From Terramyces sp. JEL0728 (Eukaryota; Chytridiomycota; Chytridiomycetes; Rhizophydiales; Terramycetaceae), in contig JADIIU010000048.1 in NCBI GenBank assembly GCA_027603945.1, positions 1 to 64,000 on the forward strand: 64,000 nt of DNA, written 5' to 3'. Below are positions 8,323 through 48,061 of this stretch, one piece after another; positions within the stretch are counted from its first letter, which is position 1, and the number at the start of each line of letters is the position of its first letter. Made by a program: the position numbers and the translations under genes. The notes beneath the pieces are model-generated. The model made no database searches and had not been told where the DNA came from. It saw nothing but the letters and a program-made list of their open reading frames with translations.

Positions 8323-9527
8323 ATGAATATTCCGATATTTTTATTCAGGATAATTTTGTTTTCACTGCTAATATTTCACTACTATTATGTTACTTCACCA
8401 CTAGTTTCACTTTACTTTTTGTTTACTCTAGAGTCTTGGTTTTATGCAATGAACATGGATATTCTTGCAAGACTAAAGATTGACCTCAACGTTGGTATTT
8501 GTTGCTGATCCATAGGTAACGAGAGATTAATCCATAGGTAATGAGAGATTAATCCATAGGTAACGAGAGATTAATACCAGGAAACGCCTATAAATTATAT
8601 ATAACAAGTAGCTGGCTGTCTCTGTTTTGCTTTGTGCTGACCCTACCGTACGGAGAATACGCTGGACTGCTACTCACAATCGTATATTTCATTATGCCAG
8701 TCAAATTCATGAGAAAAGAGCGATACGGATTCTTGCATTTGATTTACAAAATGTTTGTTTCTGAACCAATCGATTTACAGACTTTGTTAATAACGGATAT
8801 TTCAACTTCATTCTCAAAAATATTGGCACAGATTCCCATCCACTTGGCTTCGTTTACCAAACAGGACTCGCTTGTTTCGTTTATTGTTTGTATTCCGTAC
8901 CTCTTGCGGCTTAAACAGTGTCTAGGTGAAGCAAGGTTGCTCATAATTTACTCTAGGTATTAAACAGTTGATGTAGGTTTCTAAATCCTAATCAAAAGGT
9001 TGAACGATTACTAACTAGAGGCATAGCAATGTGTTGATGTTTAAAAAGATTCACTTGATGAACGCACTAAAGTATTTCTCTGCACTGCCGGTTGTGATAT
9101 TGGGGCATTTCGTAGGGAATATGGTTTTCATGAAGGATCTGCAAAAGAATGAAATTTACTATTCATGGCAAATTCATATTAATTCAGGATAGCTTGTATG
9201 TTTATCAACAGTACTTTTTCACTGTACTGGGATATTGTAATGGACTGGCACTTGTTTAATTTCATTTCGCTGTTGCCGACAAGTCCAACGATTCTGCGCA
9301 GCAATATGCAATTTCATCCAGCATTTTACTATATGGCAATCATATCAAATACGGCATTTCGATACTTGTGGATTCTGAAAATCTATTTTATCGAGAATAG
9401 TGAATTAGACTTTGGTTTGAATATCATAGAGATTTTTAGAAGATTTGTGTGGGTGTTTTTTAGGCTGGAGAGGGAAAAGAGTACAAATACACTGATTTCT
9501 GTAAAGGAAGAAGTTGTGGAATTTTAA
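8323..9527 (+). CDS. ERD1: Erd1-like EXS-domain membrane protein
   Basis: Exons 8323-8494, 8581-8956, 9021-9167 and 9188-9527 give about 344 residues (1035 nt including stop, a multiple of three). The C-terminal half is an EXS domain (ERD1/XPR1/SYG1 family): ALKYFSALPVVILG, FSLYWDIVMDW, then LEREKS near the end. Several membrane helices are evident. Yeast Erd1 is a Golgi protein that recycles phosphate and aids retention of glycosyltransferases and ER proteins; its length (362 residues, from memory) is similar. The first two introns are 86 and 64 nt and each looks like several micro-introns in tandem. The third, 9168-9187, is a 20-nt GC-AG intron whose removal restores the conserved tryptophan before IACMFINSTFSLYWD. 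The stop overlaps AATAAA. Confidence 0.85.
8495..8580 (+). repeat. tandem array of four micro-intron-like units (86 nt)
   Basis: Units lie at 8495-8515, 8516-8537, 8538-8559 and 8560-8580. Each starts GT, ends AG and is 21-22 nt. Units 2 to 4 are near-identical copies (GTAACGAGAGATTAAT then CCATAG or ACCAG), each with an ATTAAT branch-like motif; unit 1 shares the ATCCATAG end. There is no exon base between units. Removing all 86 nt joins NVG to NAYKLY and keeps the Erd1 frame. Confidence 0.85.
8957..9020 (+). repeat. 64-nt intron divisible into three micro-intron-like units
   Basis: Units at 8957-8976, 8977-8998 and 8999-9020 (20, 22 and 22 nt) each begin GT and end AG; the second and third carry CCTAATC and TACTAAC. 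Unlike the first array, the units are not obvious copies of one another. Total removal joins IYSR to HSNVL within the EXS region. It could also be spliced as one ordinary 64-nt intron. Confidence 0.6.
9168..9187 (+). other. 20-nt GC-AG intron
   Basis: GCAAATTCATATTAATTCAG has a GC 5' end, a normal ATTAAT branch-like motif and a CAG 3' end. No GT lies at a usable position, and only this excision rebuilds YSWIACMFINSTFSLYWD of the EXS domain. Confidence 0.75.
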
Positions 9528-9592: not shown

Positions 9593-10550
9593 TTATTTAA
9601 CCGTCTCGCTTTCTCTGGTGGTGTACATATTAGAATTGAGCTGAATAGAATCAAATTTAGGCTGCTTCAAACCAAAATACTGAAACAGAAAAGGTTCAAA
9701 TCGCTGATCCACACACAAGATAATCACACTGGGCACAATATAGCTGAATATAATACAAGTTTGTGCAATCATGTCGTATACCAGTAGACATGGCCTGTGG
9801 ATAAAGAATTCAAAAAATACCTGTGTCAACAAAAGAAACCTTTCCCAAAAATGGAGCCCAAAAAGAGAGAAAAGTCAAGCAATTCAATACACAGCAAAAC
9901 ACCAGCCGCTGCTCTTTCTTTGAAGTCTTGATGACTGCATTGATTTTTTCAATGGTTTTGACAAACTTCCAATAAATGTTCAAATAGCAAAGAGTCAGAC
10001 ACACAATACTGTTGGATATGATAAATATAGTAACACTAAAGATAATTTGTGTTGTTAGTATTGGCTTGTAAAATGCAATTGTGCAGTAAGCTTGATTGGG
10101 TTGCTCGACATAGTTGCCAAGGTTATAAGAGATGATATCTGGCAGAACAGCTAGAAAAGCAGAGAATAAAGTGGTGCCGAGAATTGCAGTGTAAATCTGA
10201 CTTTTTGTCATTATGATTCCCCTTACAATCGCCAAATATCTTTCAATCGCAATCAGATCGTGAATTAGTATCCCCAAACAACAGATAAAGTAAGCAACGT
10301 ATCCATGTATCCTACATCCCAACATTCCCGTCGCAAAATCATGGAAATGGCTGTCGATTACATTGTAGATGAAAATAAACGTACACGACAATACGTTTAC
10401 ATAGCATAAATAGATTGGAAGAGTCAGATTCGGCAAGTACTGTTTCCCAAGCGTAATTAATACTGGTAATAGACATATTGGAATCCCTACTGCTCCTGTC
10501 ACCGCTAGAAGCGTAACGAATGATGTGTATCCTGTATATGGTTCGCTCAT
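9593..10550 (-). CDS. class A-type seven-helix G-protein-coupled receptor
   Basis: About 312 residues, two exons (10550-9840 and 9820-9593) around a 19-nt intron GTTTCTTTTGTTGACACAG. Start is ATG 10550 (MSEPYTGYTSF). Seven hydrophobic helices are visible. Helix 3 ends IAIERYLAIV, an ERY version of the D/ERY motif; cysteines before helix 3 (MLGCRIHG) and in loop 2 (AYCTIAF) can form the usual disulfide; helix 6 has FLSFWAPF. Helix 7 (TCIIFSYIVPSVIILCVD) has a degenerate NPxxY and no retinal-binding lysine at the place expected for opsins. It resembles the two tandem GPCRs at 54.6-56.9 kb, including the intron position after FxPFLxK. Ligand unknown. The stop overlaps AATAAA. Confidence 0.75.
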
Positions 10551-10816
10551 CAAGAAAAACACGTCATGTCAGACTTGCCTTTTGAAACTTTCTGTTAAAA
10601 TGGGAACAATTAGGCACTATGACTTTTATCCACGCAACGCAACGAAAATCGGGATGAAGCAATTTAGCCCTATTTAATCCTGAAAATATAGCGAATAAGC
10701 AAGGTAGAGTTGATTGTTGATGGGCAACATTACCCTTTATCTTACATAAAAATGCTCATAAAGATTCTTTCGGGAATGGAGAAAGCGCCGCAAGGGACCT
10801 CACAAAAGAAATAAAA

Positions 10817-19455: not shown

Positions 19456-22400
19456 ATGTCAGGAGATACAGAACACTGCTGGAATCAGTTTTCTCTTTCT
19501 TTTTCAAGATCAAAAATGCATCCACCATTCAGTGTGAATGGCCATCAATTCAGATTCACCAAGGAAAAGGACAAAACACTGATTTACAAATGTGATAGTG
19601 CTGGTTGTTTATCTGAGGTTGCCATCAGTATAGATTACAAAGTTATTGGCGAACCATCTCCACATGTTCACCACGCTTACAAAGATCTCAACGATTACTT
19701 GGTTAATCAAAAATATACTGCAGAATATGCGTACTCTCGATTGCAATTGGGAAGTGGGTCTGCTGTCCAGGAAGAAAATGCCAATATCCAAGGTGAGATG
19801 TTGACTGATGTTCAAACGCACCCATCTCTTGAAAACCAAATGTCATCAATTAGGCTAATTAAATTAGGGGAAACAGCGAATAGTGACAGTACTCCGGCAG
19901 CAGTGGAAATGTCAGATAACCACATGCAAAATACTTTATCCCCAGTGTTTGATGCACAACAGACTTTTGATTTAAACACAATTTCGCTGGACAGTCAAAT
20001 CATGGACGTAGAAGCGGATTTGGATGAAACTCTTGCATTTGTAACAAACCAAAACGAAGCGATTGATAGCTTGAATCACCCGCAATCAACAAATCAGGAA
20101 ATAGCTCTGGTCGACGAAATTGAATTAGATGACTACAAATACATATGCGCTTTGTTTGATCCTTCTGAAAAGCTATATGAATGTGCTTTTTCAGCCAAAT
20201 GCAGCTGCGAATCCTATGTTATCAAGAAAATGGACACTGGTAAATACAATTTACCAACTCTGCATTCAAAGTTTTGCCGAGCAACGAAAGCAATGTTCAC
20301 CAAGATGAACGAATCCAATGCTGTTGAATGGGTTGATGAATCTGCCAAGGTATTAAGTGCTAACATAGACGGTTAAAGAACTGATAAAAACAAAGAAGCC
20401 AGTTGTTCATGGAGGCCATGGATTTTATCATTACAAAACTGCAAAAACTAGGATTACATATAATTGTAAAGGCAAGAAAAAGTGTGGATGCACATCAATT
20501 ATAATCCTTGACACTATAAGGGACATTCTTTACAGCCCTACTGAACATTCAAGTGATTGTACTTTACCTCGGGATAAAGAGAACAATCTGGGCAGCATTA
20601 GCATAAATTCTGCACCGGTTGCTGCAAACATTGCCAGTGCAACAGATACTACCAAAGTACAGCAATCAAAGAAAAGCACTGTGGGTCCGAAAATAGGTAA
20701 ATACTCTACTGCATACGAGAACGATGGTAAACTACGTGTCCGATGGAAGGTGCGCTCAGAGCAGTCTCAAGTAATCACCAACTAATCAAGTTTCTCAAGA
20801 GCATTGTTATTCATCGCAAACCAATCGAAATTGAAGAGGGAAGATACAATTTTTCATTATGGAGGAGAGACAACATCTACTATTCGTGCAAAAACTCTCC
20901 ACTAGGTTGTAAATCAGTATTTAGATTCCAAACTGAAAAACAATTGTTTTACCATCCAACGGTACATACGATGGATTGCGATAAGAAGAATGACGAGATC
21001 GGATCAATGATATTACGAATGAAACTAAAAGAGCCGATTGTTTTGAACCAAAAGACATTTGAATTTCATGAAGAACAAGATGATTGCATTACTTTTAAAT
21101 GCAAAGTTGATGAATGTCCAAAAACGATCAAACTGCAATCGAATCAAATCATGGATGACTTAAGCACGCATCATTCGGCACACTGTAACCACAAAATGGA
21201 CGAATCAGAAAAGAGCAAGATCTTGGATGATTTATTGGCAGAGTCAAGTGCGCTTGTTTCGGAATTAAATCCAAAAGAGACGATAGCGGATATTCTTAAG
21301 CACCGTAAAGTGAACATCAAAGGGTTCGAGTATGTTTTCTGTACTTCCCGGCCTACTTATATCTACTACATGTGTCCTTACCGAAAAACACTTGATTGCA
21401 AAGCATCGATAAAGTTGGACTTGCTGGATAAGAAATGGTCGGATAGGGGATCTAGTCACACATCGCAATGCTCATTGTTGAATCAATTAGTTCATGAAAG
21501 GTATCCAACTGAAACTGTGGGTCAGCTGGAACCAGAACAAACCAAACCAGATGAAGAAATTATCGAAGGACTCTGCTCAAAACTACCAGTTGCAATAGAT
21601 GGGCATTTGATGAAACATACTTGGTCAGGAAAGTATATCCATTACCACTGTCCTAATAGATGGATTTCAGGAAGAATGTGTCCTGCACAATTAAAGTACA
21701 AAGTGGGAGATGAGAGGTGGAGCTTTAATGGAACAAACCACACTGAAAACTGCACACGCACACAAATGGAAGGAATGAAAACGAATGGAATTGTTGATTT
21801 GTACTCGGATAGTAGTGATAGTTCAGGTGAAGATTCAAAAAAAGAAAGCCCTAAACAAACAGTTACCCCGAGATCACCTGAGCAAATTCGAATATTGGAA
21901 CAAGTGGAAAACGGACAGTCTGCTATTGATGGACTCGTGCACAATAAAAAGACTTCAAACGGGAAATACATTTACTATGAAAATAAGACAAAGGCAGCTT
22001 TTGCGAGGCTTTTGCCTGATGACCCAGATTTCCATTTAGGTAACAGGCTGATTTATTAAATGATAGTGCATACACTGCCAGCACAAAGTCCGGTAAAGAA
22101 TCCCTAATTACAGAAAACCTGATTATTTCCAAACCCCACGGCCAATCTGAAACTTCAAATCCAGATTTTGCACCTGAACAACTCGCTCTAGTAAGTGATG
22201 CTAATTTTAGGTTAAACTAGTTGATGCAGGTCGTCCTATTATCCTAGACGGATTCCTGTTCAACAAGAAATCTTTTAGAGATAACTATGTTTACTATTAT
22301 TGTGTCAATAGCAAGGATGCCTTTTGTCCCGCATTTGCCAGATTTACTAGAGGAAATCCGATATGGCACGATAATGGGACAACGCACTCAAAGGAATGCA

Positions 22401-31749: not shown

Positions 31750-32181
31750 TTACGATAATAAATTGTCTATATCCATAACTTTCGAAGAGTTGGTTTGGGT
31801 AGATTTGGGGCTTATTGGCACAGGGTGACTATCGTTTGTTTGGGTAGAATTCGGACTTATTGGCACAGGGTGACTGTACGGTAGAGGCACAGCTACGACT
31901 GCCATAGCTGGCCTTGCATAGAAGGACGAGAAAAACTCTTTTTGATCTACTTTTTCTTGCAGCTCTCTGATATATTTAACAGTGTTTTCCAGTATAGTGA
32001 GTTTTTGGAGGTAATCCTGGTTACGGTTTGATGGAACCATTGTTTTTAATTGCAGCATACAATTTGCAATGCGTTCTCTGCGTTTTCGCTCTATTGCCGT
32101 GTGTGATACCTTGCGAAGTTTTTCCTTCTGTTCTAGCGTTAATTGCTGCTTCGGAGACATGTTTCCGTGGTTCTCTTCCAT
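31750..32181 (-). CDS. bHLH transcription factor
   Basis: 143 residues, one exon, from ATG 32181. The basic region SHTAIERKRRERIANCM has the His, Glu and Arg of class B bHLH factors that read CACGTG E-boxes. Helix 1, a loop (VPSNRNQDYLQ) and helix 2 (LTILENTVKYIRELQEKV) follow. The C-terminus contains a near-perfect 15-residue tandem repeat built on SHPVPISPxSTQTN. No other domain is present. Small fungal bHLH proteins of this type regulate metabolism or development; targets are unknown. Confidence 0.85.
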   Translation of the reverse strand: MEENHGNMSPKQQLTLEQKEKLRKVSHTAIERKRRERIANCMLQLKTMVPSNRNQDYLQKLTILENTVKYIRELQEKVDQKEFFSSFYARPAMAVVAVPLPYSHPVPISPNSTQTNDSHPVPISPKSTQTNSSKVMDIDNLLS

Positions 32182-46927: not shown

Positions 46928-48061
46928 TTAAATAAATTGCCATTGAACGTAACATAAACGTCCAATCTCGGAAATTCTATTGTAAACACCTAATGCCTGC
47001 CAGACAGCCCCGTTACCATCAATGTTATCTACCCCGACACAGCCTTGGCATTTGTCAACTACAGTTGCGACGATGGATTGGCCGTTTGGAACAATAGTAA
47101 TTTGGACCTTTCTTCCACAAGCATCTGTACCGGTTGGGAAAAAGTCGAGAGATAGAGCAACTACAGGAGTGCTGCCAAGGTTTGGGTAGGCGGTGTATGG
47201 AGGACATGCACTCCCAGGATCAGAGCTGTATCCAGTCAAAGTTGAATACTTGATACCACTAGAAACAGATGATTGAGGTCTAACGCAAGTTGGGGCAGCA
47301 GAGGAGGCCAAGTAAGACGGGGTTTGGGTAATTTGACATCCATTGGGAGAAAAGGCAGATTGACAGCCTGCACTACAGTAATTGTTGTCATTGCCACAGT
47401 TTCCAGACGAGGAGCAACATTGTCCGTAAATACAGCTAACACCTCCTCCACAAGAACCGCCAGGTCTAAGATTGGTAATTCCAGAAGCAATACCAGGCAC
47501 TGAAGCAGGGATTGGCAGAGAAACCGACTGGGAACCGGATGAGGATCCAGCTGCAGGCACACATTGGGAATACCAAACACTTTGAACAACACAGGAACCA
47601 GATGCACAAGTAGTTGCACCAGTGTATCCCTGGCCACCACATTGCCCATACAATGGGACGGATGCTCCAGTGTTTCCAGTGCTGGCAGGCGCGCTTCCAG
47701 ACGATCCAGATGAAGACCCTGGAAGACACTGGGAATACCAAACACTCTGGACTTGACAGGAACCAGACGAACACAAAGTTGCACCAGTGTATCCCTGGCC
47801 ACCACATTGTCCGTACAATGGTACAGATCCGCCAGAACCACCACTAGATGATCCAGACAAAGACCCTGGAAGACACTGGGAATACCAAACGCTCTGAACC
47901 TGGCAAGTGTATCCAGCTACGCAGGTAGTAGAACCATAGTAGCCCTGGCCACCACATTGTCCATACCCTGAAACTGCACTGGCTGAACCGACGACTGATC
48001 CAGACGAATAATATTGAGCTCTATATAGTGATAGTAACGCAAAAGTATGGACAGAAAACAT
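46928..48061 (-). CDS. secreted 3xCBM1 - CBM18 - expansin-like protein
   Basis: 377 residues, one exon, with a short hydrophobic signal ([15 protein letters not shown]). Three fungal cellulose-binding CBM1 modules follow ([11 protein letters not shown]...WYSQC), linked by Ser/Gly-rich spacers. Next is a hevein-type chitin-binding CBM18 ([20 protein letters not shown]), then a double-psi beta-barrel domain ([44 protein letters not shown]) as in expansins/loosenins and barwin-like proteins. No glycosidase site is seen; such proteins loosen polysaccharide. It lacks the intron that its two relatives carry right after the VDKC codons. Confidence 0.9.

Follow-up and report, generated by a model that had tools for sequence, protein, structure and literature searches.

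The window analysed here, a 64,000-nt stretch of the chytrid Terramyces sp. JEL0728, contains an EXS-family (Erd1-like) gene running on the plus strand from an ATG at 8323 to a stop codon ending at 9527. Behind its first exon lies an 86-nt interval (8495-8580) that reads GTATTTGTTGCTGATCCATAG / GTAACGAGAGATTAATCCATAG / GTAATGAGAGATTAATCCATAG / GTAACGAGAGATTAATACCAG. The features of the gene are as follows.

8323 to 8494, plus strand: exon 1 of the EXS-family (Erd1-like) gene, an open frame from the ATG at 8323; Pfam PF03124 matches the joined protein
8495 to 8515, plus strand: unit 1, 21 nt, branch motif CTGAT, motif score 4.3; brings an in-frame TGA if retained
8516 to 8537, plus strand: unit 2, 22 nt, a duplicate with branch motif ATTAAT, motif score 1.7; no open frame if retained
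8538 to 8559, plus strand: unit 3, 22 nt, motif score 2.5, a duplicate nearly identical to unit 2; retention leaves no open frame
8560 to 8580, plus strand: unit 4, 21 nt, motif score 6.1; could be one more micro-intron, or else the seven codons (NERLIPG) that open exon 2
8508 to 8575, plus strand: 22-bp tandem repeat, 3.1 copies, in register ATCCATAG / GTAACGAGAGATTA
8936 to 9020, plus strand: second intron, a probable chain of four diverged units at 8936-8956 (21 nt), 8957-8976 (20 nt), 8977-8998 (22 nt) and 8999-9020 (22 nt)
9168 to 9187, plus strand: single GC-AG micro-intron of 20 nt that bridges the frames, motif score 10.1 with the GC unscored
9188 to 9527, plus strand: last exon, closed by the stop codon; positions 227-328 of the EXS profile match 9180-9476

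Joining the flanking exons gives an EXS-family protein by PF03124 (70.1 bits without unit 4, for a 233-aa part; 70.8 bits with it, 240 aa). The closest protein in our search, from the chytrid Globomyces pollinis-pini, shares 36% identity, and further EXS matches lie on contig C80 of the assembly. Elsewhere in the window, a 250-aa frame on the minus strand (9810-10562) matches the rhodopsin-family receptor model PF00001 (60.1 bits), a receptor type unusual in a fungus, and other tandem repeats occupy 31789-31875 (45 bp x 1.9) and 47699-47974 (147 bp x 1.9).

The second intron of the gene can be divided into AG/GT-chained units of 21+20+22+22 nt. From 36 open parses, six were chosen by hand and scored against the homologue profile: removal of all four units was best of the six (179.3 bits), a runner-up that likewise includes the pair of 21 and 20 nt reached 177.3, and a parse without tandem introns was lowest (161.2). 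Four-unit removal leaves a junction without gaps against Globomyces and a 15-residue loop; a simple motif made this loop measurable in 8 of the 31 homologues, and 5 of those share the value. Units 1, 3 and 4 are weak as motifs (-0.2, -2.0 and -4.0), so the four-unit reading rests on the protein, and 8936-9020 is probably a chain of four micro-introns. Because the intron at 9168-9187 combines a GC donor with an otherwise good consensus, GC donors seem to be used in this genome.

At the first interval, the split into 21+22+22+21 nt proposed in an earlier note on this DNA proved exact. All four units run from GT to AG, carry a branch motif CTGAT or ATTAAT, and abut with zero nucleotides between them, so that the AG/GT boundary is re-formed at each join, as the note had also said. 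Units 2 and 3 differ by a single base; unit 4 equals unit 2 over its first 16 nt and ends in ACCAG, not CCATAG. The branch A stands at -8 in units 1-3, a position with a frequency of 3% in our fitted intron model (described below), and at -7 in unit 4. Tandem Repeats Finder reported the repeat at 8508-8575 with period 22, 3.1 copies, 95% matches and a score of 129, and exact searches of the 15.0-Mb assembly for units 2 and 3 returned 2 matches, both in the array at 8495-8580. The note had proposed that one micro-intron was duplicated in place. Duplication in place is supported by the 22-bp repeat; the copied block, however, straddles an AG/GT join instead of comprising one whole intron, given that the repeat is in register ATCCATAG / GTAACGAGAGATTA.

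When introns of 17-24 nt were allowed across 8455-8583, exactly two readings were open, with either units 1-3 or all four units removed, and both contain at least three consecutive zero-exon introns. Among the 15 combinations that keep at least one unit, the only open one is retention of unit 4 alone. Removal of every unit, which had been thought necessary for the EXS frame, is therefore not required: unit 4, if kept, reads NERLIPG in frame. The more basic proposal, tandem micro-introns with no exon between them, is supported as far as the abutting units are concerned and is joined by similar chains genome-wide and in conserved genes, with the reservation that unit 4 may be exon.

Intron lengths were estimated in a 264-kb sample of the 15-Mb assembly (the 64-kb window and 100 kb each from the start of contigs C1 and C2) by counting GT...AG gaps that join two stop-free coding stretches against control dinucleotide pairs. 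Counts at 19, 20 and 21 nt were 120, 156 and 56, compared with 47, 41 and 13 for GC-AG, one example of the controls. Gaps of 41 nt were slightly high (90 versus 62-80 over six control pairs); apart from these, no length outside 19-21 nt was in excess in this sample when no motif was demanded. The fitted intron model has the donor GTA, the branch motif YTRAY, whose A usually lies 6 or 7 nt before the intron end, and the acceptor YAG. Gaps with a good motif numbered 51, 94, 19 and 10 at 19, 20, 21 and 22 nt, 1 at 23 nt, and about one or two per length beyond that, up to 160 nt; the longer motif gaps listed are, in our reading, either noise or real micro-introns with an in-frame extension on the upstream side. 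No intron class above 22 nt was visible in the 264-kb sample, and a spliceable intron in this fungus seems to measure 19-22 nt. By sequence, the target units have the form of a spliceosomal (U2-type) micro-intron of this genome, a GT...branch motif...AG segment of 19-22 nt that interrupts a reading frame, and units 2 and 3, at 22 nt, sit at the edge of the length range.

Intron patterns with no exon between them are in excess across the genome. At the loosest threshold, the 264-kb sample held 6 consensus-intron pairs at distance 0, three of them at the target locus and one (window 22191) later rejected, against a mean of 0.45 per distance over 1-60 nt. In the whole assembly, back-to-back intron patterns gave 10+16+16+10 = 52 matches (44 sites) against 0+0+1+0 for the reversed patterns, which are a weak control for intron density. 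One pattern with 16 matches at 13 sites at zero exon gave 2 matches with a 2-nt exon and 4 with a 6-nt exon (two near-identical copies), so that the exon-length controls cover two distances for one pattern. Exon-start bias was not supported as the source of zero-exon pairs, since GTA directly follows just 2 of 202 single introns. Four frame-consistent chains fall within the sample (the target, L012, L013 and L018), a count that extrapolates very roughly to ~200 chains in the genome.

Of the 44 pattern sites, 21 were examined with ~3 kb of sequence and 11 as short stretches. A chain above thresholds was present at 16 of the 21, and 13 of these 16 were frame-consistent on whole-chain removal; the remaining 5 showed no chain above thresholds within their 3-kb flanks. 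Seven of the 11 short stretches held a chain, one of which had already been seen in L039, and four held none above thresholds; among these chains are one of six diverged units (C12) and one of three (C28). Near-identical copies of gene stretches also occur in the assembly (G000:C11:199732 and C106:554; C90:5101 and C90:15824), and the C90 pair, read for intron change between recent duplicates, lacks a complete second unit.

Frame consistency was assessed in 29 chain candidates, among them those of the 264-kb sample and chains encountered incidentally, with alternative parses of the same place and L041 (the L031 region repeated) set aside and the target entered with three units. After whole-chain removal, the best upstream and downstream phases agreed in 23 of the 29, and 20 had coding signal on both sides; six were frame-inconsistent. 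Among rejected candidates, the window stretch 22191-22229 fits in frame only if its second piece is exon, and in L034 the frames point to the first piece as exon. Because one unit reads as exon at both places, the pattern alone is no proof of a chain. Frames were also inconsistent at L039:1462, at L045:1500 and at the minus-strand stretches 1877 and 2507 of L031. A further minus-strand stretch of L031, at 1810, belongs to the 23 and, having no downstream coding signal, falls outside the 20.

The longest chains comprise seven units. Two such chains lie in L031 (contig C128), one of them among the 20, and one seven-unit chain holds five identical 20-nt copies; at some loci, misassembly could account for copies that are identical. 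L031 is also the densest place we encountered: one strand carries four chains, each of 3-7 units, in ~1.3 kb (1416-2704, about G000:C128:22045-23333), and the opposite strand another three chain-like stretches.

Conserved proteins fix several chains in position. Alignment of the protein after whole-chain removal to solved proteins gave gap-free junctions for Arl2 (20+20), proteasome alpha6 (at C30:14748; 21+20+20+20, 81 nt, the last three units identical), pyruvate carboxylase (20+22), GID4 (19+20) and haem peroxidase (21+22). The HDAC6-like chain (20+20) was gap-free against the first repeat of HDAC6 and showed a two-residue gap, seven residues past the junction, against the better-scoring second repeat. 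For CDC23 (21+19) the one line of support was equal-length ranges, and the MATH-domain stretch had no match among solved structures. Pfam matches span the chain junction in the MATH, POT1, SNF2, importin-beta N, mitochondrial carrier and SPX stretches; the match in the CBS stretch was under the cut-off, and the HEAT protein had no above-cut-off Pfam match across its junction. Over 93% of its length the proteasome alpha6 fragment has 100% identity to Terramyces sp. JEL0728, and it shows 95% identity to Boothiomyces macroporosus, both of the Terramycetaceae (Rhizophydiales). A Terramyces protein model in the database carries the alpha6 sequence minus the chain.

Splicing signals were scored in 26 hand-listed units from chains of at least three units, taken outside the pattern pair that had found each chain; several of these units are near-copies of one another, and the chains C12 and C28 lay outside the frame test. 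YTRAY was in place in 17 of 26 units (12 of 19 non-last and 5 of 7 last units) versus 5.5% in shuffled interiors, with about two thirds expected, as a product of frequencies, under the model fitted to single introns, and 5 of 11 middle units carried the strict branch motif. GTA was kept in 23 units and YAG in all 26; the non-last units retained donor, branch site and acceptor in 16, 12 and 19 of 19 cases. If a chain were one intron, its inner signals should decay. That they are mostly kept supports selection on each unit, as does the finding that introns of greater length are not visible in the sample.

In aggregate, we consider it quite probable that 8495-8580 is a chain of at least three, and perhaps four, spliceosomal micro-introns with zero exon between them. 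In the mechanism that we propose, a 22-bp segment across an AG/GT join would have been copied in tandem, each copy starting with GT, ending with AG and acquiring its branch site ATTAAT where copies meet. Since every copy has these three elements, each could be excised as its own ~20-nt intron, in any order, leaving the protein unchanged. Because the spliceable length seems to be 19-22 nt, an added piece must itself be a complete intron, and a ~20-nt intron growing by one such length would be tolerated on that condition only. The same process may have given rise to the chains of 2 to 7 units elsewhere in the genome. From the sequence we infer that units would be removed one at a time under a ~20-nt limit, that this limit would be a property of the spliceosome, and that chain growth would be neutral for the protein. 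A reasonably likely generalization is that, under a strict ~20-nt limit, intervening sequences would be quantised, becoming larger only as exonless chains of introns (reaching at least seven) that are spliced singly, with duplications acting as protein-neutral gains.

The history of the target array depends on unit 4. We lean slightly towards a version in which the introns are units 1-3 (65 nt), with unit 4 belonging to the exon, so that copying would have joined exon-derived GTAACGAGAGATTA to intron-derived ATCCATAG and made new introns that are part exon, part intron. The open frame through NERLIPG fits this version, and so does the loop containing unit 4, which measures 16 residues with the unit and 9 without it, when the same alignment columns hold 15 to 148 residues in 29 homologues (two others were not measurable); the argument from length is weakened in that the shortest loop (P0040) is doubtful in alignment. 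Exons behind other chains often begin with GT as well: 10 of the 20 good chains, counting the target with unit 4 as exon, compared with 15 of 202 single introns (Fisher p 4.7e-6 with the target; 9 of 19 without it; three cases in one locus, L031), which would follow if the copied segment frequently crossed the 3' splice site ahead of an exon starting with GT. At the other end, AG closes the exon before the chain in 6 of 20 cases versus 39 of 202 for single introns (p 0.25). The homologue profile, however, gives a tie (179.3 with unit 4, 179.8 without), the pairwise score against Globomyces is slightly better without unit 4 (565 versus 559), and among the four units it is unit 4 that scores highest as an intron motif (6.1).

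That same score speaks for a second version, to which we give tentative credence, in which all four units are introns and units 1 and 4 (both 21 nt) are the older pair, once adjacent, whose shared AG/GT boundary was copied twice at a later time. Two-unit chains of unlike units do occur elsewhere, yet the resulting loop of 9 residues would be shorter than in all 29 measured homologues.

The simplest reading of the repeat is a single ordinary intron, 65 or 86 nt long, with a 22-bp minisatellite inside it and its inner AG/GT sites unused. Fission yeast offers a precedent in one intron reported to span four 24-bp AGGT duplicates (PMC4974935). Units 1-3 have their branch A at -8, an uncommon place for it in a 20-nt intron of this genome, and this counts against unit-by-unit removal at the target. 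We nevertheless regard an ordinary intron as unlikely, because no intron class above 22 nt is visible in 264 kb (with the 41-nt count slightly high) and because the non-last units of longer chains mostly retain donor, branch site and acceptor. That a single genome holds many chains might also suggest a dispersed intron-like mobile element (introner) inserted beside itself, which we judge highly improbable: near-identical copies dispersed genome-wide define an introner, whereas zero-mismatch searches for three array unit sequences across the genome found each only within its own array, so that growth looks like local duplication and not transposition.

If chains of separately spliced micro-introns are the correct reading, this genome would be a natural laboratory for intron birth and multiplication. 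The origin and multiplication of introns are a long-standing open question, and cases caught in the act are few; here one genome presents many chains, whose units span the range from identical to fully diverged, and conserved proteins fix the position of some chains. The genome also makes testable whether very small intron size sets both an upper and a lower limit, leading to growth in whole-intron steps.

No report of exonless micro-intron chains was found in the literature searched, most subscription papers being outside its reach. Nucleomorph introns are very short with a narrow length range. Tiny introns of ciliates such as Stentor (PMC9505925) likewise combine very short length with a narrow range, as here.

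Recursive splicing, with its zero-nucleotide exons or ratchet points, resembles the target in that a juxtaposed AG/GT permits stepwise removal with no exon left (PMC8605326). Ratchet points as described there lie within long introns and need a cryptic exon, whereas each target piece, at ~20 nt, resembles a complete intron by itself; the juxtaposed AG/GT is present at the target, and a long host intron with a cryptic recursive exon is absent (total 65-86 nt). Stwintrons are complex fungal intervening sequences removed by consecutive splicing reactions, which for the target is a proposal, and they are nested, so that an inner intron interrupts a splice element of the outer one (PMC5639578). The target units, in contrast, stand side by side, each with its own contiguous donor, branch motif and acceptor.

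Closer to the proposed mode of growth, introns of Cryptococcus have been gained by repeat expansion with exon sequence between them (PMC2395259). As here, copy number creates extra introns, and it differs among Cryptococcus strains; those repeats (~107 nt) carry exon ends, so that their introns stay separated by exons, whereas the target units are exonless. Tandem duplication with AGGT is a recognized source of introns, the single fission-yeast intron across four 24-bp copies included (PMC4974935). As proposed for the target chain, a segment with AG/GT provides a new intron with its GT and AG while leaving the protein as it was. In the known cases, however, an exonic segment becomes one intron, whereas at the target the copies lie beside an existing intron, measure about one intron length and form chains. 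Tandem AGGT duplication as an intron source is thus already known, and what appears to be new here is the exonless chain of micro-introns.
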